In this document: positions 6,251 through 44,511 of the stretch, piece by piece
Layout of the letters: each line of letters starts with the position of its first letter
Position numbering within the stretch: position 1 is the first letter of the stretch
Virus record (IMG/VR): IMGVR_UViG_3300036398_002581
Span: 1-64,000 of that record
Length of the DNA stretch: 64,000 bases
Reading direction: 5' to 3' (one strand)
From: a virus
Position numbers and translations under genes: made by a program
The notes under the pieces: generated by a model
What the model saw: the letters and a program-made list of their open reading frames with translations, nothing else
Databases searched by the model: none
What the model was told of the DNA's origin: nothing

Positions 6251-6259
6251 CCGACATTC

Positions 6260-7162: not shown

Positions 7163-7236
7163 CCCCCGGCCCGTGGAAACGAGAACCCGATTCACCCCCA
7201 TGCCGCCCCGTGCGGCGAAACACTAGGAGAGAGACG

Positions 7237-7815: not shown

Positions 7816-7844
7816 ACCCCAGGTCGTGGAAACGAGAACACACA

Positions 7845-7884: not shown

Positions 7885-8184
7885 ATGCTTGCTGAAACAT
7901 GGAATGAAACTGACGGATACGGGATCCCGAGGATGACCTCGCAGGTTGGATTGAAACGCCGCTACAGCTACGACGGCGGCCAGACATGGCGGCACAACGC
8001 ACGGCTGGCCCGCAAGGCCGCGGGGGTGCCGGAACCTTGGTACTGGCTTGATGGGGTGCCGTATTGCCCTGCCTGCGTCGAGGCCGATTCGCCGTGCATG
8101 GGAGGCGATGAGGCCGCCCGCGCTAATAGATCACCGGCTTCGCAATGGGATTGCCGCTGCGCCTGCTGCGGGGTGCAATCATGA
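7885..8184 (+). CDS. Cys-rich protein with two CxxC pairs, 99 aa
   Basis: The middle holds WYWLDGVPYCPACVEADSPC and the C-terminus DCRCACCGV, together a probable zinc-binding unit with CPAC and CACC. The N-terminus has RRYSYDGGQTWR. Its stop overlaps the next start (ATGA, 8181-8184), so it is probably coupled to the ASCH gene. Confidence 0.6.
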   Translation: MLAETWNETDGYGIPRMTSQVGLKRRYSYDGGQTWRHNARLARKAAGVPEPWYWLDGVPYCPACVEADSPCMGGDEAARANRSPASQWDCRCACCGVQS

Positions 8185-8540
8185 TGATGGGCATCAACAT
8201 CAACGACAAGACCCAAGACTTCACCGCTCAGATTCTGCGCGGCGAGAAGACGGTCGAGACCCGCCGCACCAACTCGCTCCGACCGTATGTGGGGCAGCGG
8301 GTAGGCATCGTCCGCACCGGCCGGGGGCGGGCGACACTGGTCGGTTACGCGACGATTGGCGAGCCGATCCGCTACGAGAACCAGAAGCAGTTTGCGAAAG
8401 ACCGCGCTCGCCACCGGGTGGCGGCGGGCTCCCCGCACGACTGCGGCCCCGAGGGCAAGTTTGGCTACCCCATGATCGACGTTGAAGCGACGACGCCCAG
8501 GGCGGTGACGAGCCGCGGGATTGTGGCGAGAAGAATCTGA
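8181..8540 (+). CDS. ASCH domain protein
   Basis: 119 aa. Shows the ASCH pattern: ILRGEKTVETRR, a turn to YVGQRVGIVRTGRG and strand ATLVGYATIGEP, then a helix and a C-terminal strand. ASCH domains are PUA-like folds that bind RNA or modified nucleotides; some bacterial members are N4-acetylcytidine amidohydrolases or ribonucleases. The first of three tandem ATGs (8181, 8184, 8187) overlaps the previous stop. Role in infection unknown; RNA processing or control is likely. Confidence 0.7.
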   Translation: MMMGININDKTQDFTAQILRGEKTVETRRTNSLRPYVGQRVGIVRTGRGRATLVGYATIGEPIRYENQKQFAKDRARHRVAAGSPHDCGPEGKFGYPMIDVEATTPRAVTSRGIVARRI

Positions 8541-8574
8541 CCGAGCACCCCGAACGACGAAACGATAGACCATA

Positions 8575-8612
8575 ACCCAGCCGGCCCCGGCCGGCGAAAC
8601 GAGAGGACGACG
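8575..8612 (+). repeat. Leader with CCGGCC-CC-GGCCGG palindrome, copy 2
   Basis: Second copy of the 7845-7884 leader block; palindrome at 8581-8594, followed by GCGAAACGAGAGGACGACG and the start at 8613. Confidence 0.75.
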
Positions 8613-8855
8613 ATGGCAAAGAAGAAAACAGCAAAGAAGCCGAGCCGAAGAAAAGCCGCCCCCAAGTTTGCCCGAGGAACGATGGTCTTCTGGCTTGAGG
8701 ATGCGAAGCCTTGGTGGATCGTCGAGTGGCAGCCCAACAACGGCCGCGACGGCTGCTACTGGATCACCGACTACATCGGCACCTGCGGCGGAGCCGGCGA
8801 GCGCGAGTTGAGCCTGTTCCCCGGCGAGGCACCAGTTCTGCGGACGGGATTCTGA
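8613..8855 (+). CDS. Hypothetical basic protein, 80 aa
   Basis: Lys/Arg-rich N-terminus (AKKKTAKKPSRRKAAPK), then a beta-rich core with several Trp (MVFWLEDAKPWWIVEWQP) and a Gly/Cys loop. It looks like a small nucleic-acid-binding beta protein with a basic tail. No family recognised. Confidence 0.6.
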   Translation: MAKKKTAKKPSRRKAAPKFARGTMVFWLEDAKPWWIVEWQPNNGRDGCYWITDYIGTCGGAGERELSLFPGEAPVLRTGF

Positions 8856-8932
8856 GACAACATCCACCCGCGCTCGAGGGCCGCCGCCACCCCCGAGCGC
8901 AACAACCCCGTGCGGCGAAAGCAGAGGAAACG

Positions 8933-9316
8933 ATGACGAAAGAAGGCTTCAAGATCGACAAGAAGAAGCGAATGTCGAAGAAGGCGGTCTGCGCCTACTT
9001 CGGCGATCGCGGGATGCCGGTATCGCCCGCAGAGGTGGCTTTCCACGCGGTCGGCACGTTCACAAGCAGGAAGTGGGATCACGAGCACGGCGGTCGCTTC
9101 ACCAACGAGCTGGAGACCATCCCGGCCCTGGCCGTGATCATCAAGGAACGGCCGGCTGGCATCTGCGACTGGGGCGACACCGACGAGGGCCGCATGGATG
9201 TCTACTCGCTCAGAGACATTTACGGCGAGTGCCAGGACGATGTCCCCGCCCCGAAGTACGCTATCGCCGCGGCGAAGCGGGCAGCCCGGCCGGCGAAACG
9301 AAAGGCAGCCCGATGA
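8933..9316 (+). CDS. Hypothetical basic early protein, 127 aa
   Basis: Start 8933 follows GCAGAGGAAACG. Lys-rich start (KIDKKKRMSKKAV), globular centre with GDTDEGRMDVYSLRDIYGE and a basic C-terminal tail (AAAKRAARPAKRKAAR). ATGA overlap with the next gene at 9313-9316. Function unknown. Confidence 0.6.
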   Translation: MTKEGFKIDKKKRMSKKAVCAYFGDRGMPVSPAEVAFHAVGTFTSRKWDHEHGGRFTNELETIPALAVIIKERPAGICDWGDTDEGRMDVYSLRDIYGECQDDVPAPKYAIAAAKRAARPAKRKAAR

Positions 9317-9501
9317 TCACCTACGGCCCGATCCCAGGCGAGATTCGGCGTGAGTGGCTACAGCTCATGTTCGACAACATGCGAATGCACCGCGAGCTGC
9401 GGCAACGCAAGCGTAGGAGCGCCGGCCTCCCCGCCGGCAATCTGGTCACCGGATCGTTCCGGCGGCCCGTCCGAGGAAACAACAGGAACCCCCGATCATG
9501 A
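9313..9501 (+). CDS. Hypothetical basic small protein, 62 aa
   Basis: ATGA overlap with the upstream stop. Helical N-terminal half (IRREWLQLMFDNMRMHRELRQ), then Arg/Gly-rich and probably unstructured. Coupled by overlap on both sides, which supports it as real. Confidence 0.5.
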   Translation: MITYGPIPGEIRREWLQLMFDNMRMHRELRQRKRRSAGLPAGNLVTGSFRRPVRGNNRNPRS

Positions 9502-9674
9502 AAAACCGAGTGACCCCCTACGAGGCCGGCTGGCTGACATTTCTGGTCAGCAGCGGCATCGCCAGCGAGGCTGCCTGCCGCGCCGCGATGAATCGCGTGG
9601 CCCAGGACGCCCTCGACGAGATCAACCGCCTGCGGGAAAAGAAGCGGGCTAGCAAAAAACGCAAGGATCAATAG
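9498..9674 (+). CDS. Small helical protein, 58 aa
   Basis: ATGA overlap with the preceding gene; CAACAGGAACCCCCGATC precedes the start. The sequence begins MKNRVTPYEAGWLTFLVSSG, continues as an amphipathic helix and ends in a basic tail (REKKRASKKRKDQ). It ends the block before the AT-richer gap at 9675. Confidence 0.55.
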   Translation: MKNRVTPYEAGWLTFLVSSGIASEAACRAAMNRVAQDALDEINRLREKKRASKKRKDQ

Positions 9675-9701
9675 GCTACTGGTCGATAGTTAATAGGCTA
9701 C
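9672..9701 (+). promoter_or_regulatory. Two TAGGCTAC boxes
   Basis: TAGGCTAC at 9672-9679 and 9694-9701, 22 bp apart, in the gap before 9735. The same octamer, read on the minus strand, lies upstream of csrA (25642-25649), a small membrane-protein gene (43502-43509) and the capsid gene (62696-62703). In two of those cases TAGGCT fits a -10 box; here no clear -35 is seen. Confidence 0.4.
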
Positions 9702-9734
9702 GAAACGATACTTCACTTCAAAAGGAGACTCAAC

Positions 9735-10040
9735 ATGAGTCACGCAGTAGGCGATAGGGTCTGGAGCGCATGGGTGTCGACGAGGAACATCGACGCGATT
9801 GAGTCGATGGTGACTTCGGTCGTCGTCGTGGCGGTGATCGAGGAGCGGCCCCTGTTCCGCCTGTATGGCGGCGGGGTCCGCGAGAAGTACGAGTTTGAGA
9901 CGATCTGCCTGACCGAGGCGGATGCCTGGGCTCACTGTGCCCAGGAGATCGCCGCAGTACGCGATCGCGTCGTGGCCTCCGCCGAAAACGCCATCGCCAA
10001 GGCGGCGTCGTTCCGCGTCGGGGAGGCTGTGCCCGTATGA
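9735..10040 (+). CDS. Hypothetical early protein, 101 aa
   Basis: Good Shine-Dalgarno AAAAGGAGACTCAAC. Small alpha/beta protein: strands MVTSVVVVAVI and PLFRLYGGGV, then an acidic helix (TEADAWAHCAQEIAAVRDRV). ATGA overlap with the following short frame. Confidence 0.6.
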   Translation: MSHAVGDRVWSAWVSTRNIDAIESMVTSVVVVAVIEERPLFRLYGGGVREKYEFETICLTEADAWAHCAQEIAAVRDRVVASAENAIAKAASFRVGEAVPV

Positions 10041-10186
10041 CTCCCCCCCGACCGTGGAAATGGGTCATGGATGACCTCGTCCGCACGCTCGTGCTGATCC
10101 GACTCGGGCAACTGCTCGGGTCGGACAGCACGGCGGCGAGGGCCGTCCACGATCTCGTCGAATCCCTGTTTAGCATTGTCCGATGA
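10037..10186 (+). CDS. Possible 49-aa protein
   Basis: ATGA overlap with the preceding gene. Residues 10-49 form a plausible amphipathic helical pair (DDLVRTLVLIRLGQLLG). The first codons coincide with a CCCCGACCGTGGAAA leader motif, so this could instead be an untranslated leader; the promoter candidate at 10176 begins inside it. Confidence 0.35.
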   Translation: MTPPRPWKWVMDDLVRTLVLIRLGQLLGSDSTAARAVHDLVESLFSIVR

Positions 10187-10203
10187 TTGTCCTGGCGTAT
10201 AGA
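10176..10203 (+). promoter_or_regulatory. Candidate promoter TTGTCC-16-TATAGA
   Basis: The -35 TTGTCC (10176-10181) and -10 TATAGAAT (10198-10205) lie 40 bases before the start at 10243, with a CGAATGTGGAAACGAG leader motif between. Confidence 0.5.
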
Positions 10204-10242
10204 ATGTCACCCCTACCCGAATGTGGAAACGAGAGGAAAACG

Positions 10243-10632
10243 ATGAAATATGTTCTGAGCGACATTGCCGGCGAAAACTTCCGGCTGGCCGATGGAATGT
10301 GGACCGACGAGGTTGACCTTGCCGAGCGGTTCTCATTCGACGCCGCCCAGGTGCGGATCGAGGAGCTGGCAGCCGAGGGCGTTCACGCCAAGGCTGTCGA
10401 GACGCATGGCAGGAAGCGGAAGACCTCCGAGTCGATCGTCAATCGCGTCACGAAGTCACTGGACAAGCTCGAGCGCCAGTGGGAGGGCAAGACGATCGGC
10501 ATCGGCTACGAGGTCGATGTCGAGGTAGGCCAGATCATCCTGACCCTCGAGCCGGACGGCGAGCCCGAGCTTTCCCTGAACATCAGCGTGGACATCTCCG
10601 GCGTGTTCGTCGGAGTAGGAGACGAAAACTAA
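10243..10632 (+). CDS. Hypothetical early protein, 129 aa
   Basis: Start 10243 follows ACGAGAGGAAAACG. A helical first half with basic KRKTSESIVNRV leads to a beta-rich acidic C-terminus (IGIGYEVDVEVGQIILTLEP, LNISVDISGVF). It overlaps the next gene by one base (TAATG). No family recognised. Confidence 0.6.
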   Translation: MKYVLSDIAGENFRLADGMWTDEVDLAERFSFDAAQVRIEELAAEGVHAKAVETHGRKRKTSESIVNRVTKSLDKLERQWEGKTIGIGYEVDVEVGQIILTLEPDGEPELSLNISVDISGVFVGVGDEN

Positions 10633-10925
10633 TGAAACCCATTGATATCAGCGAGTACCTGACGATCCAGCAGGCTATGGACGAGCTAGGCTGCCCGCGG
10701 AGGACACTCTCCAGGGCCGTTCAGCGGGCCGAGGCCGCCGGCAAAAAGATCGTCGTCGAAATCCTGGGCAAGCCGGCGATCCACAAGTCGAAGATCGCCG
10801 TGCTCAAGGAGTACTACTACCCCTACGGCTCAGCCGCTCACCAGAAGATGGTGAAGAAGTGGGGGGCGTCGGGCGGCACGCAGAAGCGAGTGAACCGCGA
10901 GAAGGCCGAGCGGGGTCGCCTTTAA
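10632..10925 (+). CDS. HTH DNA-binding protein, 97 aa
   Basis: Residues 7-60 match a MerR/excisionase-type helix-turn-helix with wing: YLTIQQAMDELGCPRRTLSRAVQ, then strand KIVVEILGKPAIH. A basic C-terminal tail follows. It closes the rightward early operon and meets the leftward HNH gene tail to tail, stops overlapping (10922-10925). Likely a transcription regulator. Confidence 0.65.
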   Translation: MKPIDISEYLTIQQAMDELGCPRRTLSRAVQRAEAAGKKIVVEILGKPAIHKSKIAVLKEYYYPYGSAAHQKMVKKWGASGGTQKRVNREKAERGRL

Positions 10926-14178: not shown

Positions 14179-14452
14179 TGTTGTCTGCTCCAGTAGCTAC
14201 ACTCATCTTACCAAGTCGGGCCTCCCTCTCGGCGGGACTCCAAGTAGCGCGAATCTTGGCGCATTCCAGGCGTATCTGAGCCGGGGTCGGCAGGTAGAAA
14301 TCCGGCTCGGGGCGATCCGGTAGGCCAAGAAGGCCGGCGGCCACCGCCAGCTCGTCGACCGTGAACTCCAACTCGACGCAGATTTCCTCTGTCGTTGAGT
14401 CGCCCTTCCAGAGCCGTCGCAAAGCACGCTTCTGGTTGGCCGAGAGGATCAT
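14027..14452 (-). CDS. GcrA-like HTH protein, C-terminus overlapping next gene
   Basis: 141 aa as read. The first 80 residues resemble GcrA-type regulators: LRRLWKGDSTTEEICVELEF then a helix, ending IRATWSPAEREARLG. A paralogue with the same IRATWTPEERRSRLVG block is at 16778-17113. The last 50 residues (Arg-rich) overlap the next gene for 152 bases in another frame and look like shadow coding. A frameshift near 14180 or a true long overlap are both possible. Confidence 0.55.
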   Translation of the reverse strand: MILSANQKRALRRLWKGDSTTEEICVELEFTVDELAVAAGLLGLPDRPEPDFYLPTPAQIRLECAKIRATWSPAEREARLGKMSVATGADNNAGESRIGDRSKRGAADDPQRRRHRRGRSVVVRANDRKKRGRRVRQGRVR

Positions 14453-15321
14453 GGCAGGATTGCGACGTACCTCGATCCGGGGTTCAGAAAGAGCTGGTAG
14501 CCGGCCCGCTGCATCGAGCGGTGCAGGAAGACATGCTCGCAGTCGCCGCCCTCGTAGGTGCCTGCCAGGAAAGCCTCCCGGCGATAGAGGCACAGGCCGC
14601 CGAACGCCGAGTTCATCGGGATCGGCGGAGTGCCGACGGGCGGCATGAACAGGTGGAACCACGCATGAAGCCGAAGGTCTTCCCAAAAATTCGGCCTCGC
14701 TGCCCAGGCGTCGTACTGGGCCGCTCCGTAGACCCCCGGCGACTCCTCCCGCATGAATAGCGAGCAGCTCGCCATCGCCCCCGGCTCGCGAAGACGGAGC
14801 GACGAACCGAGCATCTCGCAGAACCATCCGAGGCTATTCAAAACGCCGTCCACGCTGAAACCGCCGTGCGGGTCGGTGTCGAGCACCATGACATACCCGG
14901 CGTCGGACGCATGTCGCCGCACCCACTCCTGGCACTTGGTGCGGCACTTCGCCAGCCGAACCGTCCGCTCTGGCTCAAACCCTCGGGCGTCCTCGCCCCC
15001 CAGGCGGTCGTGCTCGACGGTGACCCACTGGCGTATCGCGAAGTCGTCGAGCACGTCGCCGGTCCCGTCGGTCGAGTCATTCTCGTAAACGTAGTAGACG
15101 CAGTCCCGCCACAGCCCCGCCAGCTCGTCCACGAGCCGCAGCGTGTTCTTCAAATGCGGCATCGAGTTCCTGGCGATGCTGACGATCGCCAGCTTCTGCC
15201 TGCGGGCCTCCACCCGACCGAATTCGATGTGCTCGCGGTAGCTGGCGAGGTAGTTGTCGCTAACAGACCACATGTCCTCGGGGCGTCTGATCGTCATGCT
15301 CGGGCTGTACTGGAGATTCAT
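14449..15321 (-). CDS. Glycosyltransferase (GT69/CAP59-like)
   Basis: 290 aa. IVSIARNSMPHLKNTLRLV, YYVYENDSTDGTGDVLDDF and VMVLDTDPHGGFSVDGV give the nucleotide-sugar fold with a DxD metal site (DTD). YENDSTDG is typical of CAP59-like mannosyltransferases. ATGA overlap with the next glycosyltransferase gene upstream. Together with neighbours it probably modifies virion or host surface glycans. Confidence 0.7.
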   Translation of the reverse strand: MNLQYSPSMTIRRPEDMWSVSDNYLASYREHIEFGRVEARRQKLAIVSIARNSMPHLKNTLRLVDELAGLWRDCVYYVYENDSTDGTGDVLDDFAIRQWVTVEHDRLGGEDARGFEPERTVRLAKCRTKCQEWVRRHASDAGYVMVLDTDPHGGFSVDGVLNSLGWFCEMLGSSLRLREPGAMASCSLFMREESPGVYGAAQYDAWAARPNFWEDLRLHAWFHLFMPPVGTPPIPMNSAFGGLCLYRREAFLAGTYEGGDCEHVFLHRSMQRAGYQLFLNPGSRYVAILP

Positions 15322-15938
15322 CGCAGAATTGCCTCCATGAGTGAGGCGCGGCGGTCGGGGAGCGTGGTGGCGTGAAAGAAGCGACAGCCGGCGAAACCCC
15401 TGGGGTCTCTGGCGTGCGGATTCCACTCATACGGCAACTCCGCCCAGGCCCGGCCCGCGGGAACCGACACGGGCGTGGCGTCGGGGTCGCCGCCGAGGGC
15501 CGCGATCAGCGCCGCCTGCTCCCACCAGCCGGAGGATCGGCGAAAGCTGTCAAGCGGCCAGAGGCTCTCGAGCAGTTTAACGGCCTCGGGCCGCGCGAGC
15601 CATACGCCGCAGTTCGGGACGGCTCCGTCTGCGGTGTGATGCACTACCAGCCCCATCGGAGCGTCGGCGGGCAGGTCGTCGAGGATGTCCTTGTCGTACT
15701 CGACCACGCCGACATCGGCGTCCAGCCAGAGCACGGCGTCGTAGCCGCCCTTCAGGAGCGACAGGATCAGCGGAATCTTGCCCCACGACACGGGCCGGCT
15801 CATGCTGCGGAACTGCTCGCCAGAAGGTACGAACAGATCGTACCCGTGCTCCTGGGCATACCTCGCAAACGTCGGCAGCACTGCGTCGAGTAGTTCGGCC
15901 ATCGGCCCCAGCCCGAATGTGGTGAGCGCCTTCTTCAT
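15318..15938 (-). CDS. Glycosyltransferase (GT34/GMA12-like)
   Basis: 206 aa. SWGKIPLILSLLKGGYDAVLWLDADVGVV is the GT34-type core with a WLDAD metal motif, and WWEQAALIAAL the acceptor helix. Start 15938 (ATGA overlap with the methyltransferase stop) is preferred to a GTG two codons earlier. Confidence 0.75.
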   Translation of the reverse strand: MKKALTTFGLGPMAELLDAVLPTFARYAQEHGYDLFVPSGEQFRSMSRPVSWGKIPLILSLLKGGYDAVLWLDADVGVVEYDKDILDDLPADAPMGLVVHHTADGAVPNCGVWLARPEAVKLLESLWPLDSFRRSSGWWEQAALIAALGGDPDATPVSVPAGRAWAELPYEWNPHARDPRGFAGCRFFHATTLPDRRASLMEAILR

Positions 15939-16456
15939 CTCCACCCCACGAACAGGGCGCGACCCTTGGAGTCAGTATCAATCCCGGTCGTGCTGAACTT
16001 CGCCGCCACCGCCGCCTGCATGGCGTCGTCAAGCTGCTCGAAGTCGTGGATCGCCAGGATGCTGCTCGTAATCTCGACGCAGCCCAGGTACTCGAGGAAC
16101 GCCGCCGGCCCGTGGACCGCGTCATGAAACACAAGGTCGAATTGCCCCGGATGACACTGAGCCAGATAGGACGCGGCGTCCACGGTAACCGGGCTGATGT
16201 TCGTGATCCCGAGGCTCGCCCAGTAGGTCGATCGCATCGCCTCGGCCACGGTGTCTGACAGGTCAACCGCCGTGATCGCAGACTCCGGCGAAGCCAGGGC
16301 CATCGCCGCGGCCGACAGCCCCCTATGGCTGCCCAGCTCGAGGATTCGCCACTGCTTGCCTTCGACGGCCTCGCACAGCATGCGGATATGCCGCCGGTCG
16401 GTGGTCATCGGGTGCGAGTCATCGATGGACTCGACGAATTCACGCCAATCGCTCAC
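15935..16456 (-). CDS. Class I SAM methyltransferase (Methyltransf_24-like)
   Basis: 173 aa. GTG start overlapping the VRR-NUC stop (GTGA). SAM motif I is RILELGSHRGLSAAAMA, motif II ITAVDLS, then FDLVFHDAVHG and ILAIHDFEQLDDAM. Resembles sugar or peptide O-methyltransferases often clustered with glycosyltransferases. Likely decorates a glycan made by the neighbours. Confidence 0.75.
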   Translation of the reverse strand: MSDWREFVESIDDSHPMTTDRRHIRMLCEAVEGKQWRILELGSHRGLSAAAMALASPESAITAVDLSDTVAEAMRSTYWASLGITNISPVTVDAASYLAQCHPGQFDLVFHDAVHGPAAFLEYLGCVEITSSILAIHDFEQLDDAMQAAVAAKFSTTGIDTDSKGRALFVGWR

Positions 16457-16746
16457 GATACGTTCTCCAGAAAATGCCTCGCCTCGGCCGCCGAGGTCAC
16501 GACGGCCACCGGGCATCCTGCCGCCGAGAGTTCACGCATTCTGTGGAGCTGGATTTTCGTCGGCTCTTCGCCTGGGCGTTTGCACTCAAGCCAGAACGCG
16601 CGGCCGTTCTTGACCATGAGCACGTCAGGGACGCCGGCCATCGAATAGGCGTTCCCGTGGAACTTCGTCGCCCAGAAGCCCAAGGCTCTTCCTTGAGCCA
16701 TGACATTTGCAACGATGGTTTTCTCCAGGGGAGCTTTCCGTTGCAT
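16453..16746 (-). CDS. VRR-NUC domain nuclease
   Basis: 97 aa. Motif order fits VRR-NUC: an N-terminal helix, GVPDVLMVKNGRAFWLECK (active-site Asp, Glu, Lys), Q-R-Mxxxx-GxPVAVV. These PD-(D/E)XK enzymes cut branched or flap DNA. Begins directly below a promoter whose -10 box is six bases from the ATG. Confidence 0.85.
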   Translation of the reverse strand: MQRKAPLEKTIVANVMAQGRALGFWATKFHGNAYSMAGVPDVLMVKNGRAFWLECKRPGEEPTKIQLHRMRELSAAGCPVAVVTSAAEARHFLENVS

Positions 16747-16752
16747 CCCCTG

Positions 16753-16781
16753 ATTGTCTGCTACAGAAGCCTTACGGTCAA
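16753..16781 (-). promoter_or_regulatory. Promoter TTGACC-17-GACAAT, leaderless placement
   Basis: On the minus strand -35 TTGACC (16781-16776), 17-base spacer, -10 GACAAT (16758-16753), then six bases (CAGGGG) and ATG. Transcription starting about seven bases after the -10 would begin at the start codon. It overlaps the end of the upstream HTH gene. Confidence 0.6.
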
Positions 16782-17113
16782 GACGAAAACATGTACTGTT
16801 CGCGGTGGAAGTAGAAGTGCGGCACCTCGACGGGGTTGCTGCGATAGCCGACGAGCCGAGACCTACGCTCCTCGGGCGTCCACGTTGCGCGGATGGCGGC
16901 GGATCGCTCGGCTATCTCCTCGGGGGTCGGGTCCGGGGTCTCTGTGCTCCTGGCGGCAGTGAACTGCGGCGGTCGTAGCCCCAGGCGATGCTTGCGGACG
17001 AGGTTGTAGAGGTGTCCGCGGGTGCAGCCGAGCTGCTCGCAAATCTGGTCGCTCTTCATCTCGCTCTTCCAGAGATGCGTCAGGTACTTGAGATCGATGG
17101 GCGGGCAGTGCAT
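16778..17113 (-). CDS. GcrA-like HTH protein, 111 aa
   Basis: Start 17113 with AAGGAGGATTCC upstream. N-terminal HTH (YLTHLWKSEMKSDQICEQLGCTRGHLYNLVRKHRLG) spans residues about 9-45 and resembles GcrA: a short helix, 'S-xQI-xxxLG' recognition helix, then a linker and IRATWTPEERRSRLVG. Paralogue of 14027-14452. Likely a transcription regulator. Confidence 0.65.
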   Translation of the reverse strand: MHCPPIDLKYLTHLWKSEMKSDQICEQLGCTRGHLYNLVRKHRLGLRPPQFTAARSTETPDPTPEEIAERSAAIRATWTPEERRSRLVGYRSNPVEVPHFYFHREQYMFSS

Positions 17114-17150
17114 GGAATCCTCCTTGAAGTGATGAGTAAAACAGCCAGCA

Positions 17151-17855
17151 TCATTGCTCGACCCATGCCAGGGTCCACCGCGACGTGCTGGAATCGTCGC
17201 CGGCCCAGAGTTCGTTGTATTGTTCTCGCTCCCATATTTCTGGCGTGTTGTGTTCGCCCATGTCGCGGCCGATGTTTTGCGTGCGGGCCAGCGTTGGGCG
17301 AATTTCATAGCGGTCGCCTCGCGTCTGCGTGTTCTGGATGACATCCCATGTAACTTCGCCCCCGACGGGCCACGCCTCGCGCATCTCGGCCCACCTGTCG
17401 GCCCATGTCGCCCAGCCCCAGGGCGTGAACCATCTGTGAGCGTCGGCACCGTCTGGCAATCCGTTGGCGGTGTTATACGCGGTCACAGAGAAGACGCGGT
17501 CGTTGTTGCCGAACTGCCTCGCCCACTCAAACCACAGGAGGCAATCCCTGGCTGGCGGCGTGTCGTCCTCGAGGTGGATGTGGTAGTCGCTCTGCGAGAA
17601 ACCGATGTCCAAGGCTGCGAATATCGCCCCGTTGCAGCCGAGCTTGGCTGCCGGGAATCCGATGCTCCACCCCTCGCTCGCATACTCCGACGCCACTGCC
17701 AGCGTCTCGTCGCACCCCAGGTCTACTATGACAGTGACGACGTACTCTTCGACGCCGTGGCACCGCTTCAGGGATTCAAGCGTTCGTCGCGTATACGCTG
17801 GCCTGCGGCAGGCGGTGACCGTGACTGTTTTTGTGTGCCTCTGCCGCTCGCTCAC
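17151..17855 (-). CDS. Glycosyltransferase (GT13/GT2-like)
   Basis: 234 aa. GTG start overlapping the upstream stop. VTVTACRRPAYTRRTLESL and YHIHLEDDTPPARDCLLWF give the fold and an EDD metal motif as in GNT-I-like transferases. The third glycosyltransferase in this block. TPWGWATWADRW may be the acceptor-binding part. Confidence 0.65.
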   Translation of the reverse strand: MSERQRHTKTVTVTACRRPAYTRRTLESLKRCHGVEEYVVTVIVDLGCDETLAVASEYASEGWSIGFPAAKLGCNGAIFAALDIGFSQSDYHIHLEDDTPPARDCLLWFEWARQFGNNDRVFSVTAYNTANGLPDGADAHRWFTPWGWATWADRWAEMREAWPVGGEVTWDVIQNTQTRGDRYEIRPTLARTQNIGRDMGEHNTPEIWEREQYNELWAGDDSSTSRWTLAWVEQ

Positions 17856-22420: not shown

Positions 22421-22677
22421 TAACCAAGCCTCACATACAGCGGGCCGTTCTCGCCGACGTAGGCTCCGAGCGTGTTGAACTCGAGGAACTCGTCGGCCTC
22501 TTCGTGCGTCATCCCGTCGCGGTCAACGAGAGCCTGAACGCACTTGTCGTAGTCGTAGACGGCGACGACGGCGTGATGATGATTCGCCGTGTAGCCGATG
22601 AACGCCGACTCGAGGCCGTCGGCCAGGAGCGCTTCGGGGTTGATCTCTGTAAGCTCTTCAAGTCGTTCGGCGCTCAT
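22420..22677 (-). CDS. Conserved phage protein, 85 aa
   Basis: Start 22677 by ATGA overlap. YDKCVQALVDRDGMTHEEA and EFLEFNTLGAYVGENGPLYV match a family frequent in phages and of unknown function (the fNTxGAyvGe block). Confidence 0.6.
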   Translation of the reverse strand: MSAERLEELTEINPEALLADGLESAFIGYTANHHHAVVAVYDYDKCVQALVDRDGMTHEEADEFLEFNTLGAYVGENGPLYVRLG

Positions 22678-23408
22678 TCTCCGGTTACCTCCTTGATCCA
22701 CTCCCGATACAAACTCACCCGCGTGTGCGCCGTCTCCTCGCCCTGGCGGCTCTTCAGCGGCCCCCTCGGGGCCATCGTGAAGCTGTTGACCCCGGCCAGC
22801 TTGCCTCCGGCGAAAAGCGGGCCTCCTGAGTCCCCAGGCGAGATGCAGAACTCGAGCGTGCTCGTCCCACACTGAGCGTGGCAGACGATGACCGACCGCT
22901 CGAACCGCTCGATCGTCTGCGTCCCCGCACGCAGCTTGCCGTCGTAACCCTCGTGGCCCGCAGTCAGCTTCCCGTAGAGTCCGTAGCCGACGATGCTGAC
23001 CGTCTGCCCGACCTTCTCGTCGCCGTCGCTAAGTGGTGGGTAGTAGGCAATGCCAGCGGGCTTGTCACAGTGCAGCAGGGCCAGATCGTGAAATCCGTTC
23101 TTGTCGTCGTCCCAGTCCGGGTGGATGACAACTCGGTCAACCAGACGGTTCGACAGCGTGATCCCGCTGACTCCGACTGCAACGTGCGCCGCCGTGATCG
23201 CCCAGTGCGGGGACAACAGAGTTGCCGTCGCCTCCGAGTATTTGCCGTCATCGTCGCGGCCGGAGAAGCGAACTGCGTAATCGCGGAATCGAGAACCGTA
23301 CTCGATGTACCTCGCGTCCGGCACGGCGTCGTCGGTCGTGCCTGCCATCGCGGCGGGAACGCCCAGCAGGAAGGCGGCGAGAGCTTTGTCTTCGATGGGT
23401 GGGGTCAT
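22674..23408 (-). CDS. Secreted trypsin-like serine protease (S1)
   Basis: 244 aa. The catalytic triad is WAITAAHV (His75), HDLALLH (Asp108) and SPGDSGGPLF (Ser194). The N-terminus has a signal-peptide-like ALAAFLLGVPAAMAG, so it is probably exported. Four Cys after residue 110 could form disulfides. Start 23408 is by ATGA overlap. A full S1 protease is unusual in a phage; it could attack envelope or extracellular proteins, or be a lysogenic-conversion factor (inference). Confidence 0.8.
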   Translation of the reverse strand: MTPPIEDKALAAFLLGVPAAMAGTTDDAVPDARYIEYGSRFRDYAVRFSGRDDDGKYSEATATLLSPHWAITAAHVAVGVSGITLSNRLVDRVVIHPDWDDDKNGFHDLALLHCDKPAGIAYYPPLSDGDEKVGQTVSIVGYGLYGKLTAGHEGYDGKLRAGTQTIERFERSVIVCHAQCGTSTLEFCISPGDSGGPLFAGGKLAGVNSFTMAPRGPLKSRQGEETAHTRVSLYREWIKEVTGE

Positions 23409-23506
23409 TGTTTTACAATCCTGAATTCTGAACACCCGCACTTCGGGCACGGGCCATTCGACTGCTTCGGCTCGTTGCAGCGGTTGCAGAGGCGGGTCGA
23501 AGTCAT
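23405..23506 (-). CDS. 33-aa zinc-ribbon protein
   Basis: Reads MTSTRLCNRCNEPKQSNG then PCPKCGCSEF, a CxxC...CxxC knuckle. ATGA overlaps at both ends support translation despite the size. Confidence 0.55.
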   Translation of the reverse strand: MTSTRLCNRCNEPKQSNGPCPKCGCSEFRIVKQ

Positions 23507-23880
23507 CTCTCAACTCCAGCGACCGTTGTTCCTCGCAACTGACAGCCACCTGCGCTGATCACCAAAACCAACTCGCGCTCGTCGCTGAAGTATTCGCCCA
23601 TCAGCCCAGCAATAGTCGCTTTCGCCGCAGGCCACGCGACACGCAGAAAGTTAGCAAGGAACTCCCTGTCGATGGCCGCGGCCCATGCTTTCCCGTCTTC
23701 GGAGATGACGTATTCCAAATAAGAAAACGCAGACGAGAAGTTGCGTCCGCTCTCATCCTCAAGGTCGGCGAAAACGACGACTTCGCTGCGAAAGTAAACG
23801 GCGTCCAGCAAAAGCATCAAGTCGACGTGCCTTCGCAGAAAGTCTTCGCGATCCTGAAAGGTGTTCATCGACCCTGTCAT
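23503..23880 (-). CDS. Hypothetical protein, 125 aa
   Basis: Acidic alpha/beta protein (LMLLLDAVYFRSEVVVFADL). Overlaps both neighbours. No family recognised. Confidence 0.5.
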   Translation of the reverse strand: MTGSMNTFQDREDFLRRHVDLMLLLDAVYFRSEVVVFADLEDESGRNFSSAFSYLEYVISEDGKAWAAAIDREFLANFLRVAWPAAKATIAGLMGEYFSDERELVLVISAGGCQLRGTTVAGVER

Positions 23881-25430: not shown

Positions 25431-25613
25431 TCACGACGCCGTCTCCTTCGGCGGAGCCCGATAGATCAGCTCCTCACGCACGATCTTGACGTGCTTGGGT
25501 GCGTCGATGACCAGACGCACCGTCTTGCCGACCACGGATTCCACCGTGATCTCGATATGCGGTCGATCCAGAATCAGCTTCTGACCGGGGCGACGTGTTA
25601 AGCAGAGTGGCAT
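25431..25613 (-). CDS. csrA: Phage-encoded CsrA translational regulator
   Basis: 60 aa. Clear CsrA: LTRRPGQKLILD, IEITVESVVGKTVRLVIDAP, HVKIVREELI, with the RNA-binding R6 and R44-type residues kept (RRPG and VREE). CsrA dimers bind GGA in RNA hairpin loops and block or stabilise mRNAs. The gene has its own promoter and a GGA-loop hairpin over its ribosome-binding site (25614-25630), the usual arrangement for self-control. Extra C-terminus of about six residues. Confidence 0.92.
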   Translation of the reverse strand: MPLCLTRRPGQKLILDRPHIEITVESVVGKTVRLVIDAPKHVKIVREELIYRAPPKETAS

Positions 25614-25630
25614 ACGGGAATCCTTTCCGT
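25614..25630 (-). promoter_or_regulatory. GGA-loop hairpin over the csrA ribosome-binding site
   Basis: Minus strand ACGGAA-AGGA-TTCCCGT, ending directly before the ATG. The six-pair stem (one bulged C) presents AGGA, which is also the Shine-Dalgarno sequence, as the loop. This is the known form of CsrA binding sites at repressed genes. Confidence 0.6.
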
Positions 25631-25643
25631 TGTGTGCGGCAGT

Positions 25644-25672
25644 AGCCTACCGGGTACCAAGTGTCCTGTCCA
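25644..25672 (-). promoter_or_regulatory. csrA promoter TGGACA-17-TAGGCT
   Basis: -35 TGGACA (25672-25667), 17-base spacer, -10 TAGGCT (25649-25644) within the TAGGCTAC box; 31 bases to the start. Confidence 0.6.
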
Positions 25673-26126
25673 GATGTCTTTTGCACTCGTCCTTCACCAT
25701 CGATCGCGGGTGGCTTTCAGCCGCCCACTTCAGGTAGTCCATGCCGCGAGGCTGCTTCTCGACCTCGGCGAGAGTCAGGCCAGCGAAGCGACCGTCTCGC
25801 AGGACGAACTCCTGCTCGCGCGGCTTTAGATGCCCCTTGATCGCCTTGACCCACTGGCCGGTGCCGCAGAACACGCACGCCAGATACCACTCGCCGTGAT
25901 CCTCGTGCAGGATGTCGTGGCACTGCGTGCCGCAGCGGCCGTCGGCGCAGTCGTAGGTGTGGTCGATCATCCCGATGGGGAGGATCGCCCTAGTGGGCAA
26001 TTCCCCTATATAAATAGGCGTTTTTTCGGGTTCCTGTTCTGGAACCGTCTGCGGCGCGCTTGGCCGTTTTGCCGACCCCCTCCGTCTGGTCGGCTCATCG
26101 GGAGAAACGTCGAAGAGCAGGCTCAT
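25647..26126 (-). CDS. Zinc-containing DUF3820/exonuclease-X-tail-like protein
   Basis: 159 aa. Middle: CADGRCGTQCHDIL ... CVFCGTG, a zinc site. C-terminus: FVLRDGRFAGLTLAEVEKQP then DYLKWAAES matches the DUF3820-type domain found in exonuclease X-like proteins. It lies next to helicase and primase genes, so a DNA-processing role is likely. The csrA promoter overlaps its end. Confidence 0.6.
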   Translation of the reverse strand: MSLLFDVSPDEPTRRRGSAKRPSAPQTVPEQEPEKTPIYIGELPTRAILPIGMIDHTYDCADGRCGTQCHDILHEDHGEWYLACVFCGTGQWVKAIKGHLKPREQEFVLRDGRFAGLTLAEVEKQPRGMDYLKWAAESHPRSMVKDECKRHLDRTLGTR

Positions 26127-27775
26127 ATTGGCATCTCCATCCGGTACTTTTCGCGGGGGTCATGGGCCACGATCAACTTGCGCTTGGCTCTGGTGACGGC
26201 GACGTACTCGATCCGCCGTTCCTCGTCGTGACGCTCCTGGCTGTTTTCCTCGCTTTCTCGGATTCGGCGGCCAATGCTCGATAGCACGATTACCTTGGAC
26301 GCCTCTTGTCCCTTGACCGCATGGATAGTGCCTACTTTGACCTTCGGGTTCGTCACATGCTCCAGGCCATACCGCTTGGCCGCCGAGGCCCACTTCGACC
26401 CGCCGTCTGGCAGGCCGCTCCAGGCTCCGCTAGCAATGGCATCACGCAGTTGGTCAGTGGCCCCGACCGCCGGCAAATCCTCGGGGAAGAGGATGTCGAA
26501 GCGATCCTTGAGCCCCTTGTTCCATTGGCTCTTCGATCCCCGCATCAGCCACGTTCGCCCGTCCGAAGTCTTGCTAGGTAGGATATCGATCGCCTGAGAC
26601 CATTCGTCTGCGGTCGCACCCATGCCATGCTGGAGCTTCCATAGGCCCGCCATGCCGATGTCGCGATTGTAGGAGCCCTGCTTGGCCTTCACACGGCGAA
26701 ACGGCACACCAACGTCGTCAAGGATGGCAGCGATCCGGCCGACGTGCCGGTTTGTCCTAGCGATCACCAGCGTCTCCTCCCGCGGGTCGATGTCGGCGAG
26801 GTCGTCCTCGAAGTTCTCGCTCTCCTCAACGCAGCCGTCATGATCGGCCGGGGCGATCCCGCGGTCCCAGTAGTCGTGCAGACGCTGGAGGCAACGCTCG
26901 CCCAGCTCGAGGATCGGCTTCGCACAGCGGTAGCTCTTCGGCATGATCTTCTGGTTCTTCCCGACATCCCATGCCATGAAATACTTGCTCGATGCCCCCG
27001 CCCACGAGTACAGAACTTGGTATGGATCGCCAACCGCCCAAGCCCACCGGCATGCGTCCCCCGTCAGCAGCCTCTGGCAGGCCATGTCCAGCAGCCGGCT
27101 GGCATCCTGGGCCTCGTCGAAAATCCATCCCACGACGGTATCCGGCACCAGACCCTCTGGCGCGATCATCTCCGGCCCCGTCTTCGGGTCGTTCCTGACC
27201 CCCGCGAACCGGCAGAGCATGTCTGTGAAGTCGGTCCTCCCATCCAGACGCTTCGCTGCTTCGTACATCTCGACTCTCTGGATCACCTCGTCGGCCCCCG
27301 GAGCGTCGGGCGACTGATCGGCATCGACGATCTGCCGCAGGGGCACGACCATGCTCCGGGCGAACGACCAGTAATTGAGCGCAGCAGCCGCCACAGGGTC
27401 GCCAATGTAGAGAGCGACCCCGCCGTCATCCTCGTCGATGGAGCACTGCACGTCGCTCCCCAGGGCCTCAGAGACCCATTTGTCGTCCTCCTTGCCTCCG
27501 CCCAGTGTTTCCCCCTTCTGGATGCCAAGCTGCTTGTAGGCGACGCTGTGTGCCGTCCTGAACCAGCCGTGGCGTTCAAGGTCGCCCTGCTTCATCCCCC
27601 AGGCCGACGCCGCGCGACTCGCGGCCTCCGACCTTGCAGCCCGCGTGAAGCTGGAGAAGCCAATAGCGAATGGGTTACCTGCGACCTCTGGGCGATCCAT
27701 CGCTTTCTCGGCGATGTCCAACATCATCCTCGTTTTGCCAGTTCCAGCCCCTCCGATGACCCTTGCGACTTGCAT
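26123..27775 (-). CDS. UvrD/Rep-like SF1 DNA helicase
   Basis: 550 aa. Walker A GGAGTGKT (8-15), FSSFTRAA (motif Ia), motif II FDEAQDA, motif III GDPYQVLYSW, motif V VGTIHAVKGQEASKV, motif VI EYVAVTRAK. 3'-5' translocase expected. Follows the primase gene; likely replicative or recombinational unwinding. Confidence 0.88.
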   Translation of the reverse strand: MQVARVIGGAGTGKTRMMLDIAEKAMDRPEVAGNPFAIGFSSFTRAARSEAASRAASAWGMKQGDLERHGWFRTAHSVAYKQLGIQKGETLGGGKEDDKWVSEALGSDVQCSIDEDDGGVALYIGDPVAAAALNYWSFARSMVVPLRQIVDADQSPDAPGADEVIQRVEMYEAAKRLDGRTDFTDMLCRFAGVRNDPKTGPEMIAPEGLVPDTVVGWIFDEAQDASRLLDMACQRLLTGDACRWAWAVGDPYQVLYSWAGASSKYFMAWDVGKNQKIMPKSYRCAKPILELGERCLQRLHDYWDRGIAPADHDGCVEESENFEDDLADIDPREETLVIARTNRHVGRIAAILDDVGVPFRRVKAKQGSYNRDIGMAGLWKLQHGMGATADEWSQAIDILPSKTSDGRTWLMRGSKSQWNKGLKDRFDILFPEDLPAVGATDQLRDAIASGAWSGLPDGGSKWASAAKRYGLEHVTNPKVKVGTIHAVKGQEASKVIVLSSIGRRIRESEENSQERHDEERRIEYVAVTRAKRKLIVAHDPREKYRMEMPI

Positions 27776-27829
27776 GACGGAAAACCTCCTTGTTGTAAGT
27801 CCCTGAAAACAAACACTTTACGAACACTG

Positions 27830-29706: not shown

Positions 29707-29751
29707 GATGTACCTCCATGTATTGCCAAGAAAAAAGCCCTCCCCTCCCAC

Positions 29752-31663: not shown

Positions 31664-32143
31664 TCAGAACGGGGCTGCCTCGTTGGTCGTTGCCCCCGGA
31701 ATCGTCAGGTGCCGAAGTTCAGGACGGACGTACTCGCTGACGATGCCAGCGAACGGAGTCCCCTCGGCCCAGGGCTGGCGGGCGTCCCTGCCCGCAGCCT
31801 GCGACATCTCTTTGAGCAGGCTCTTCAGTCGGGTCGTGTTGACGCCGACCAACTGGGCCTCCATCCCCGCTGCTCGTGCCGCGGCCAGAATCGCGTCCTG
31901 CTTTTCTGCCGTGGCGGTCACCGAGTGAACCCACTCGATCCGCCAACTCCGTCCGGCGACTCGCACTCCGTCGAGTCTTCCTGCCGTCATTTCCTCCACG
32001 GCAATGCTCGCGAGCTTGTCGCGGCGCTTCTTCAGTTCCTTGACAGCCATTTCCGCCGAGTCGATCTCTCGGTCGATTCTGGAGATCGCCTCAAGCGCGC
32101 TCGACAGCGGTGTGTCTTGCTCTGTAGCCTTCGCAGATGACAT
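31664..32143 (-). CDS. Hypothetical coiled-coil protein, 159 aa
   Basis: Start 32143 (ATG). N-terminal coiled coil (AISRIDREIDSAEMAVKELKKRRDKLASI), then GRSWRIEWVHSVTATAEKQDAIL and a C-terminal region. Overlaps the helicase end by 53 bases. In phage replication modules such proteins are often host-nuclease inhibitors or recombination accessories; unproven. Confidence 0.5.
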   Translation of the reverse strand: MSSAKATEQDTPLSSALEAISRIDREIDSAEMAVKELKKRRDKLASIAVEEMTAGRLDGVRVAGRSWRIEWVHSVTATAEKQDAILAAARAAGMEAQLVGVNTTRLKSLLKEMSQAAGRDARQPWAEGTPFAGIVSEYVRPELRHLTIPGATTNEAAPF

Positions 32144-33479
32144 CAATCACTTCCTTTCTTTCAGACAGGGCTTGATACACGCGGCCGTCGGCCGTTGTCT
32201 TGCCTTGTAGGGTTGCGACCAAACTGAAAAACCGCGTGTTTCGTTCCTGCCCCGGCCGGTGGAGGCGGGCGATTGCCTGGAGCCATTCGGAGAGGCTGTG
32301 GCCGAGGCTGTAGAAGACGCCGACGGCGGCCCTGGTCAAGTCGATGCCGATTCCGCCGCTTTGGATTTGAGCGACCAGTACGGCGGTCTCACCGGCCTGC
32401 CACTTGGCAAGGTCATCGATTCTACCCGATAGCTCGCTGACGCTGCGCCCAAGCGACTGACAGGCATGCAGCACAGAGTCGATGTCGCTGCGGAACCGGC
32501 AGAACACCACCAGCGGCTCGTCGGCCGGCATGTCCTCGAGCATATCGGAGAAGGCGGCCCGCTTGGACGGCACGTCGTCTATCTGCCTCGCGACCGCCGC
32601 GTCATCAAGTTTCATGAACCCGCTCGTTGCCTGGAGCATGCGGAGCAGGCCGACCATAGCGTTGGCAGGCGTGATGTAACCGCCGTCGACCTGCGCGCAG
32701 AACTCGCGCTCGAGTTGGGTGTAGACGCGGCCCTCCTTGGCCGACATCTCCACCGGCACCTCGACATGCAGGATCGGGGGCAGGTCAAGCACGTCCTCGC
32801 TGCGCCGCTGAAACGTCGTGGCGGCAACTTTCGCGGCGAATTGTTCTTTGTTCCGCCAGCCGATGACCATGCCGGGGACGTTCGGATTCACGATCGCGTA
32901 CAGACCCTTGAACAGGCCGTAGAACGGCCCAAACGTCGGGCATTCGGGGCTTTCGACAGCCCGCCACGTCCCGTATGCGTCGAGCGGGCTCTGCGAGAGC
33001 AGGGTGCCGGACAGCCCGAGACGCTTGGCCTTCGGGTTTTTCTTGCACATCTTGGCCGCCCATTTGCTGGCGGCCCCCGACGGCGACTTGAGCCGATGAA
33101 CCTCGTCCCAGACGAAGCAGTCCCAGGCGAGCTTTTCAACTTCTTTGATTCGCCAGAGCGACTCGTAGTTGCAGACGATGATGACCGGCGAGGTGTCGGC
33201 CATCGCGGCCGTGAGCTGCCGGCCTTTGTCGGCCGAGGTGCCGCGGTCGAGCAGGATGATCCGCAGCTCGGGCATCCACAGCGAGACTTGCTTCGCCCAG
33301 GCCGGCATGACGGCTTTGGGGCAGCCGACCAGAATGCGTCTGATGCTGCCCGCGATCATCCCACGCTTGATGATCTCCAGGGCGACGCGGGTCTTGCCGC
33401 AGCCCATTCCAAGCCAGAGCAGGGCGTCGCGACGCCCGTCGGCCCATTCGATTGCTTCCTGCTGATGCGTCCAGAGCAT
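32091..33479 (-). CDS. SNF2-type DEAD/DEVH SF2 helicase
   Basis: 462 aa. Walker A LGMGCGKT, motif II DEVH, motif III GLSGTLLSQSPLDAYG, motif V QSGGIGIDLTRA, motif VI AIARLHRPGQ. Dimensions and motifs match the phage SNF2-like SF2 proteins. First gene behind the strong promoter at 33505. Confidence 0.9.
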   Translation of the reverse strand: MLWTHQQEAIEWADGRRDALLWLGMGCGKTRVALEIIKRGMIAGSIRRILVGCPKAVMPAWAKQVSLWMPELRIILLDRGTSADKGRQLTAAMADTSPVIIVCNYESLWRIKEVEKLAWDCFVWDEVHRLKSPSGAASKWAAKMCKKNPKAKRLGLSGTLLSQSPLDAYGTWRAVESPECPTFGPFYGLFKGLYAIVNPNVPGMVIGWRNKEQFAAKVAATTFQRRSEDVLDLPPILHVEVPVEMSAKEGRVYTQLEREFCAQVDGGYITPANAMVGLLRMLQATSGFMKLDDAAVARQIDDVPSKRAAFSDMLEDMPADEPLVVFCRFRSDIDSVLHACQSLGRSVSELSGRIDDLAKWQAGETAVLVAQIQSGGIGIDLTRAAVGVFYSLGHSLSEWLQAIARLHRPGQERNTRFFSLVATLQGKTTADGRVYQALSERKEVIDVICEGYRARHTAVERA

Positions 33480-33504
33480 GCCTGCACTCCCTTGCGTGGA
33501 GGGC

Positions 33505-34191: not shown

Positions 34192-34260
34192 GCTGGCCCA
34201 CCAATGGTGCCAGACCGGCCAGCAGAAAGCCAGCCGCCACGGATACATGGAGGTTTCCGC

Positions 34261-34464
34261 ATGCGAAAGCGTACCGTCATCGTCGAGTGGGCTGATTCCG
34301 GGGTCGAGGACGCCGACGAGGTCGTCGTCTACTCGGACACACCCGCCCAGGCGGTCGACAAGGCGAAGAAAAAATGGCGTATGACCATCGGTGCCGAGTT
34401 CCCCGGCTGCCGGATATCCAGGGCGTTTATCCTAACGCCGGAAAACTTTGCCGAATTCCTATAG
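34261..34464 (+). CDS. Small protein upstream of the integrase, 67 aa
   Basis: Start 34261 with TGGAGGTTTCCGC. Beta-rich start (KRTVIVEWADSGVEDADEVVVYSD), then an amphipathic helix (AQAVDKAKKKWRM). Possibly an excision or directionality factor by position only; no known family. Confidence 0.5.
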   Translation: MRKRTVIVEWADSGVEDADEVVVYSDTPAQAVDKAKKKWRMTIGAEFPGCRISRAFILTPENFAEFL

Positions 34465-34561
34465 GCAAAAGAGTTGCAACAGCGGCACCACCCAAGTGGG
34501 CGGTAGATACCTCTTGCTCCATAAGGGCGGCGTGGTACTCCTTTGGCGGGAGGCTTGCACC

Positions 34562-35416
34562 ATGACGCTGCAACAGATACTGATCGATCTGTACGCGCCG
34601 ATGACCGGCATATGCGATCGGACGATCACGCTCTACGGATACACGCTCCGGTCCTGGGGGGAGCAGCTCGGCAGGCCGCCGGAGACGACAGACCTTGAGG
34701 AGTTGGCGGTTGCCCGCTTCCTTGCCCACCGCGTCCGGTCGATGTCCGCGGCGACCGCCGCCAAGGATAAGGCCCAGCTCACGGCCCTCTGGGGCTTCTG
34801 TAGTCGGCGAAAACTCTGCGACACTTGGCCGCAGACGCCCAGGATCATCGTGCCCGAAAGAATTCCAGAGGCGTGGCTGGCTGATGAGTTTCAGCGGCTC
34901 ATCGACTCGTCCAGGCAGGAGCCACTCTCGTACTGCGGATTCCCTGGCTCGCTCGTTTTCCCCGCGATGCTGCTCACTGCGTACTCAACGGGCGAGCGTA
35001 TCGGCGCGATCATGTCGCTCCGTTGCCGCGACGTTCGCGGGTGTGCGGTCATTTTTCGTGCAGAGGATCGGAAGGGACGCAGGCGTGACATTTTCCGCGA
35101 CATCAGCGTAGCCTGCGCGGACGCGCTCCTGGCGATTCGCCGTGGGCCGGAGGACACCGCGATCCCGTGGGACAAGCACCCAACCTACGTTTACAACCGA
35201 CTCAAGATCATCTTGAAGCGTGCCGGCCTGCCCCACGGCCGGCAGGACAAGTTCCACAGAGTCAGGAAAACCACCGCCAGTTATTACGAGGCTGCTGGCG
35301 GGTCGGCGCAGCGTCTGCTCGATCACTCGAGCCCCGCCGTCACGAGGCGATACCTCGACCCTCGGATAGTCACGCCTGGGGAGCCCGCGCCGAGCGTGCT
35401 GCCGGAGGTTATTTAG
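34562..35416 (+). CDS. int: Tyrosine recombinase (integrase)
   Basis: 284 aa, start 34562 after GGGAGGCTTGCACC. Catalytic residues: Arg146 (TGERIGAIMSL), Lys near 171 (EDRKGRRR), His232-x-x-Arg235 (FHRVRK), His255 (LLDHSS) and Tyr264 (TRRYLDP). N-terminal SAM-like core-binding domain in residues 1-95. Rightward, divergent from the regulator; it meets the fibre operon tail to tail. Mediates integration at the attB matching 34170-34191. Confidence 0.92.
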   Translation: MTLQQILIDLYAPMTGICDRTITLYGYTLRSWGEQLGRPPETTDLEELAVARFLAHRVRSMSAATAAKDKAQLTALWGFCSRRKLCDTWPQTPRIIVPERIPEAWLADEFQRLIDSSRQEPLSYCGFPGSLVFPAMLLTAYSTGERIGAIMSLRCRDVRGCAVIFRAEDRKGRRRDIFRDISVACADALLAIRRGPEDTAIPWDKHPTYVYNRLKIILKRAGLPHGRQDKFHRVRKTTASYYEAAGGSAQRLLDHSSPAVTRRYLDPRIVTPGEPAPSVLPEVI

Positions 35417-37681: not shown

Positions 37682-37690
37682 GACTCCTCC

Positions 37691-37978
37691 TTAAAAATTC
37701 TGCCCGTCGATCACGATGTCGCTTTCGGGATAGTTTCGCCATTTGCTGTTCGAGTACCGCAGCACATCGCCATCTGCCACGCCGCTTAACTGCACATCGC
37801 TCGCCGCCGACAGAGCGGTCCCCGGAGGCCCGAGGGGGCCTGCCGGCCCTTGCGGCCCGATACCGCCGCCGATACTTGCCGCGACGACCGACGACCCTAC
37901 GCTCGCGGAGATGTTTCCTGAACCGCTGACGGTCGCCGTGATCGGCTGCGATGAAACAGTCGCTGTGATCTGACTCAT
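37691..37978 (-). CDS. Small fibre protein with collagen-like segment
   Basis: 95 aa. Beta repeats (ITATVSSQPITATVSGSGNI) followed by GPQGPAGPLGPPG, a short collagen-like triplet run that can trimerise, then a compact end. ATGA overlap with the upstream gene. Confidence 0.65.
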   Translation of the reverse strand: MSQITATVSSQPITATVSGSGNISASVGSSVVAASIGGGIGPQGPAGPLGPPGTALSAASDVQLSGVADGDVLRYSNSKWRNYPESDIVIDGQNF

Positions 37979-44038: not shown

Positions 44039-44511
44039 TGGAAATCCCTCCCATCGAAGCGGATCGTGACCCCTACGCTGCCTGCCAGGAGCCTCTGGCT
44101 GACGCCGGCCTCCTCGAGCATCTTCTCGGCCATCTCCACGTTGAGCAGCCATCGGGCCGGCGTGGCGTTGCGGAGGGAGATGAGCCCGACGACCTCTGTG
44201 ATGCCTGCCTGGATGATCGCCCTGGCACAGTCGGTGCAGGCGAACCACGGGCAGTAGAGCGTCGCGCCGGCCGTCGCCACTCCCATCTCAGCGGCCTTGT
44301 AGATCGCCGCGCGTTCGGCGTGCTCGACGAAGTCGTACTTGAGGAGGCGAGCCAGCCTGTGTTCATGCCGAGCCACCCCCGGCGGAAAGCAGTTGGCTGC
44401 GTAGATGGTTCCAGACGCCGCCACCAGCACAGCCCCATTCTGCGTGTCAGGGTCGTGGGAGTGCTGCGCGGCGTAGCGGCAGGCATCGTGGAGCCGGTCG
44501 AGGTCGCTCAT
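44032..44511 (-). CDS. dCMP deaminase
   Basis: 159 aa, start 44511 (ATGA overlap). HAERAAIYKAAEMG (zinc His, catalytic Glu) and LYCPWFACTDCARAI (zinc Cys pair). Converts dCMP to dUMP for dTMP synthesis. Coupled with the dNMP kinase. Confidence 0.88.
   Translation of the reverse strand: MSDLDRLHDACRYAAQHSHDPDTQNGAVLVAASGTIYAANCFPPGVARHEHRLARLLKYDFVEHAERAAIYKAAEMGVATAGATLYCPWFACTDCARAIIQAGITEVVGLISLRNATPARWLLNVEMAEKMLEEAGVSQRLLAGSVGVTIRFDGRDFQC

Follow-up and report, generated by a model that had tools for sequence, protein, structure and literature searches.

Phage csrA and its genomic context

The DNA analysed here (the window, 64,000 nucleotides) covers most of an IMG/VR virus record of 69,569 bases. 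At 25431–25613, on the minus strand, it carries a csrA gene coding for a protein of 60 aa that matches Pfam PF02599 and PHROG 9500 (CsrA-like regulator). The Pfam match (E 2.1e-15, 56.8 bits against a cut-off of 27) places the product in the CsrA/RsmA family, and solved CsrA/RsmE chains match it at E about 1e-9 to 1e-8. In the alignment to solved CsrA chains, residues L4, R6, R7, and R44 of Escherichia coli CsrA correspond to L5, R7, R8, and R46 of the phage protein and are all kept; the residues through which strands 1 and 5 contact RNA (E. coli L4 and R44) are thus present, and L5 and R46 are invariant among the relatives. An earlier note on this DNA had called the product a clear CsrA, and these matches, together with the retained RNA-contact leucine and arginine, bear this out. 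A monomer model (pLDDT 78) holds the central strands only, the interlocked beta dimer swap not being visible in a monomer.

The gene is flanked by a conserved 159-aa gene on one side and by an 80-aa gene on the other, with Prim-Pol and UvrD-type helicase genes upstream. A search of bacterial genomes for a host by means of csrA returned distant matches only, and a tyrosine integrase gene (34448–35416, plus strand; Pfam E 5e-7) suggests a temperate phage. Elsewhere, the window codes for a phage-encoded trypsin-like serine protease (22674–23549, minus strand; Pfam Trypsin E 6e-17), a cluster of glycosyltransferase-like and methyltransferase genes (14449–17855, minus strand; GNT-I family, Methyltransf_24) and a protein with the LPD1 and LPD5 domains of large polyvalent proteins (2402–3427, plus strand). 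In the left arm (1000–10700, plus strand), gene leaders have in common a repeated ...GAGGAAACGA...ATG pattern that sets them apart from the remaining genome and may mark another class of ribosome-binding sites, or of promoters.

That phages can carry csrA and that CsrA can regulate itself was already known. The cataloguing of csrA genes in phages and plasmids goes back to 2020 (Sobrero and Valverde, PMC7366521), phage JC1 carries csrA as a moron (PMC9144972), and knock-down of csrA in PTXU04 has been reported to lower plaquing, its role being previously untried according to the authors (PMC11879866). In the available text of these three papers, phage csrA is viewed either as a moron or as a means of manipulating the host, and target sites within the phage are not described. 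No report of a phage-wide set of CsrA operators was found in the literature searched, outside which most subscription papers and preprints fell.

The csrA leader hairpin

The csrA leader reads ACACAACGGAAAGGATTCCCGT, followed by ATG, and within it GGAAAGGATTCC (25617–25628) occurs as the sole exact copy in the window. The earlier note had drawn a 6-bp stem closed by an AGGA tetraloop doubling as the Shine-Dalgarno (SD) sequence. The hairpin with an SD loop stands, confirmed by conservation among relatives and not by fold energy, but the form drawn there overlooked a bulged C. Better supported is a core GGA[AAGGAU]UCC (25617..25628, minus strand; conserved in eight relatives), in which GGA pairs with UCC around the hexaloop AAGGAU; beyond the bulge the stem goes on with C:G and A:U pairs (full hairpin 25614..25631, minus strand). 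These outer pairs vary, most relatives retaining them; in relatives with AAGGAC the inner A-U pair is gone and the hexaloop is retained. The CsrA/RsmE site has been described as an ANGGAN hexaloop on a short stem (PMC7652899), and this is the structure found over the SD. When the leader was folded, as the earlier note had proposed, its energy lay at the level of shuffles (z -0.18), and the stem reached a probability of about 0.74–0.86 in a short mRNA from the window. Given the SD, about 2–3% of leader shuffles produce the exact hexaloop on a stem of 3 bp or more. The hairpin is judged real because it is conserved; the energy does not show it to be so. Many CsrA targets contain two or more sites 10–63 nt apart, although single-site targets exist (PMC7652899); the csrA leader, with one hairpin and a second GGA 5 nt off, below the published dual-site spacing, lacks this common but not obligatory feature.

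A promoter-like TGGACA-N17-TAGGCT (25644..25672, minus strand) precedes the hairpin, its position being conserved in the eight relatives. In the form TGGACR-N17-TARRYT, it is separated from the core by 15 nt in the window and in most relatives; the most distant relative (L026) has a weaker version 16 nt upstream. A strict sigma-70 consensus scan gave no match. The fixed position of the box implies that the csrA 5′ leader is probably about 24 nt long and contains little beyond the hairpin. A TAGGCTA-like motif (TAG[GC]CTA; 25644–25649, minus strand, in the window) also recurs about 15–65 nt upstream of same-strand genes in G000 and its relatives, at 7–10 times the genome density, and is probably the −10 region of phage promoters.

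All eight close relatives keep CGGAAAGGAYTCC at the csrA leader. In these IMG/VR records, with CsrA 70–97% identical, CGGAAAGGA[T/C]TCC stands a short way 5′ of ATG in every one, the distance from TCC to ATG being 2 to 6 nt. Four-fold sites of csrA are near saturation (about 40–50% identical in most pairs, with 2 of 18 columns invariant), and the 13-nt leader core is identical at 12 or 13 of 13 positions in every pair. SD complementarity accounts for GAAAGGA in this core, but not for the CG before it or the UCC after it, which are five invariant positions. The lone variable base, a pyrimidine, is the last position of the hexaloop, which is free in the ANGGAN hexaloop of CsrA/RsmE (PMC7652899).

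A second lineage was found through a search with the SNF2-type helicase, which is 54–55% identical. This lineage also has a csrA (protein 49% identical over 47 aa), with the leader ACAACGGAAGGAGCCGTTT, in which a perfect 5-bp stem, AACGG[AAGGAG]CCGUU, again places a hexaloop over the SD; the same site has a different stem, the sequence being altered and the structure retained. The ANGGAN hairpin over the SD is present in 12 of 12 csrA leaders across both lineages. Among 72 distinct other viral csrA leaders the CGGAAAGGAYTCC element occurs in none, and about four have any 3-bp hexaloop stem. The comparison of related phages that the earlier note had called for thus turned out in its favour, with the GGA hairpin in every close relative and rebuilt on another stem in the diverged lineage. 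Self-repression by the phage CsrA, also put forward there, would fit a hairpin both conserved and rebuilt, although that reading had overlooked similar sites at many other genes.

ANGGAN hairpins at ribosome-binding sites across the genome

The distribution of such sites has been analysed in lineage 1, comprising eight records (that of the window and those of seven relatives), all of them metagenomic contigs with self-predicted genes. An SD containing ANGGAN was scored when a stem of 3 bp or more closed it at the exact hexaloop, against shuffles that keep the loop and the coding sequence. Such a stem was found in 54 of 209 ANGGAN leaders against 8.5 expected; in the BNGGAN control the count was 8 of 294 leaders against 13.3. 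Each of the eight records is enriched singly (5–9 against about 1), as is each of four lineage-2 records (5–7 against 0.5–0.8). In a scan of loop registers over 666 distinct lineage-1 leaders, 44 stems against 6.6 expected place 2 nt before GGA and 1 nt after it, and lineage 2 gives 14 against 1.6 at the same register, which makes exact-hexaloop stems on SDs about 6–9-fold enriched over the 12 records. The excess is seen only with A as the first loop base (−2) and is by far strongest at the exact ANGGAN register, smaller excesses at neighbouring registers being for the most part what these stems would yield when longer or when paired further inside the loop. When one random member per ortholog group is taken, the excess is smaller, about 11 against 3.2.

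Other phages do not share this pattern. Seven of them, two with csrA, gave 3 hairpins against 4.8 expected, and the csrA-carrying F116, P54, and PTXU04 gave 1, 2, and 1 against 0.5–1.0; none of these 10 phages is thus enriched, although five have csrA (F116, P54, PTXU04, VvAW1, and D65). Throughout the window, regardless of gene starts, ANGGAN hairpins are not in excess (24 against 22.9), which confines the signal to ribosome-binding sites. As for a CsrB-like sponge, the window contains no cluster of four ANGGAN hairpins in 400 nt and no Rfam match.

Individual sites and covariation

Several of these hairpins lie over the SDs of replication genes. At the SNF2-type helicase gene (32091–33479) the site is GCA[AGGGAG]UGC (33484..33495, minus strand), present in 7 of 8 orthologs with two-sided changes at all three pairs, the stems being GCA/UGC, GCU/AGC, and CAC/GUG. 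The UvrD-type helicase gene (26123–27775) has AAC[AAGGAG]GUU (27783..27794, minus strand), found in 3 of 7 orthologs, a fully replaced stem among them (AAC/GUU by GGA/UCC), and the Prim-Pol gene (start 29706) has UAC[AUGGAG]GUA (29711..29722, minus strand), with a similar hairpin in two other records. Viewed singly, the UvrD and Prim-Pol hairpins had seemed unconserved, an impression reversed by the genome-wide test. A 67-aa gene (34261–34464) carries AC[AUGGAG]GU (34245..34254, plus strand), which GGA/UCC pairs prolong beyond a 1x1 mismatch; 5 of 8 orthologs have 3 bp or more there, with a C-G to A-U change, and stems in this group of 67–73-aa genes are CAC/GUG, AAC/GUU, and UCAC/GUGA. The site of a 111-aa gene (16778–17113), UC[AAGGAG]GA (17118..17127, minus strand), has 2 bp in the window and 3–7 bp in 7 of 9 orthologs from both lineages. 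Weaker hairpins are those of the dNMP kinase gene (43511–44038; PHROG 139), GGG[AGGGAU]UUC (44041..44052, minus strand), which is G-U rich and kept in 4 of 7 orthologs, and of a tail-fibre-like gene, UUU[AAGGAG]GAG (37684..37695, minus strand), with two G-U pairs and shared with the closest relative only; both may have arisen by chance. A 109-aa gene (stems GCGC/GCGC and GCGU/ACGC) and a probable tape measure gene have some of the relatives' best sites, and these sites are missing from the window record. A TTG start at 16453–16683 with a 5-bp hairpin was not counted, as it probably lies within a longer gene. In two lineage-2 records (L159 and L160) the helicase leader AUUCCUCC-ACGCUCAU-GGAGGAAU has an 8-bp hairpin in which the SD is hidden, a rival fold to the small AUGGAG loop; CsrA might hence act there as an activator.

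Pairs were counted on loop-anchored pieces, the MAFFT alignment of the helicase leaders being wrong. Over ten ortholog groups, 119 of 135 cells are paired, against 46–80 with the partner slid by one or two bases, a fraction biased upward because leaders were picked for a hairpin in some members. Two-sided compensatory types, found at 10 of 30 positions against 2–4 when slid, are stronger evidence of covariation than this fraction. The gene, its sites, their conservation, their geometry, and their restriction to this clade are in silico observations; against the reading of a phage-wide CsrA circuit count the differing membership of the hairpin-bearing gene set among relatives, the single clear site per leader where many CsrA targets have more, and the five csrA-carrying phages that are not enriched.

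Readers of the sites

Translational repression by the phage's own CsrA, acting on csrA and on other phage mRNAs through covered ribosome-binding sites, is probably what this sequence pattern reflects. It might be argued instead that the host CsrA is the main reader of the sites, the phage protein supplementing it, competing with it, or acting mostly on host mRNAs. The sites themselves cannot separate the two proteins, since the ANGGAN rule is common to CsrA proteins generally (PMC7652899). Yet each of the eight lineage-1 relatives has csrA, as does each of the four longest lineage-2 records tested, and the three records that carry the helicase but no csrA are fragments (14–32 kb). The best-kept site, moreover, is that of the csrA leader, as autoregulation by a phage protein predicts; we consider the host protein an unlikely main reader.

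Quite improbable is a structural device independent of CsrA, which would display the SD in a loop for tuning translation or for guiding an RNase such as T4 RegB. This enzyme cuts GGAG/U in initiation regions (PMC3014915), and many loops here are AAGGAG. For a generic device, however, neither the exact spacing around GGA (2 nt on its 5′ side, 1 nt on its 3′ side) nor the A at the first position would be needed, loops without this A have no excess in the ANGGAN register, the lineage-1 csrA loop is GGAU or GGAC, and other phages are without the pattern. It is more doubtful still, to the point of being hardly credible, that a transcription factor binds the csrA element as a DNA operator, with GGAA-N4-TTCC as an inverted repeat shortly after the start site. 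Its constant 15–16 nt from the −10-like box in all relatives would suit such an operator; two relatives, however, break the symmetry exactly at the position that is free for CsrA, lineage 2 has another sequence with equal RNA structure, and other genes carry the same structure with other sequences.

A proposed translational switch

The preferred reading, repression by phage CsrA, has a close precedent in E. coli, whose CsrA represses its own translation via a site on its SD (PMC7652899). Both systems share the protein family, the RNA-contact residues, and the ANGGAN hexaloop over the SD, and presumably self-repression; they differ in that the E. coli leader has four sites and the phage leader one clear site, and in that the target set of the phage is its own genome, with no CsrB-like sponge seen in the window. 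Going by what CsrA is known to do where its site overlaps an SD, the phage protein would be expected to occupy the loop and act as a repressor. In the sequence, the csrA leader amounts to a promoter and a small hairpin that offers the SD as an ANGGAN hexaloop, the structure bound by CsrA/RsmE, and like hairpins, kept through covariation, cover the ribosome-binding sites of a set of further phage genes, among them the helicase and others of replication, the probable tape measure gene, and small uncharacterised genes. In the proposed mechanism, the CsrA dimer would bind these hexaloops in competition with the 30S subunit, so that accumulating CsrA would shut down its own synthesis and repress the helicase and the other genes of the set in a coordinated manner. 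We infer in this way the binding by phage CsrA, repression rather than activation, its timing, and any action on the host.

The outcome would be a translational switch, in the programme of infection or of lysogeny, resembling that of T4 RegA, a small repressor that binds RNA and vies with ribosomes for about 30 initiation regions of the phage (PMC3014915). The parallel would be functional only, both being phage RNA-binding repressors that rival ribosomes: RegA sites are unstructured and A+U rich (PMC3014915), whereas those described here are structured ANGGAN hairpins, and the phage protein, which matches CsrA or CsrA-like regulators in Pfam and PHROG, is unrelated to RegA. We hold it probable that this phage clade has turned CsrA into a dedicated translational repressor, with an autoregulated csrA and covarying operators over the ribosome-binding sites of replication, structural, and uncharacterised genes. 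With predicted target sites within the phage genomes themselves, the question can be reduced to simple leader-binding and reporter tests, and the clade would supply, beside T4, another case of a translational programme of the RegA type in phages, unrelated to the first.
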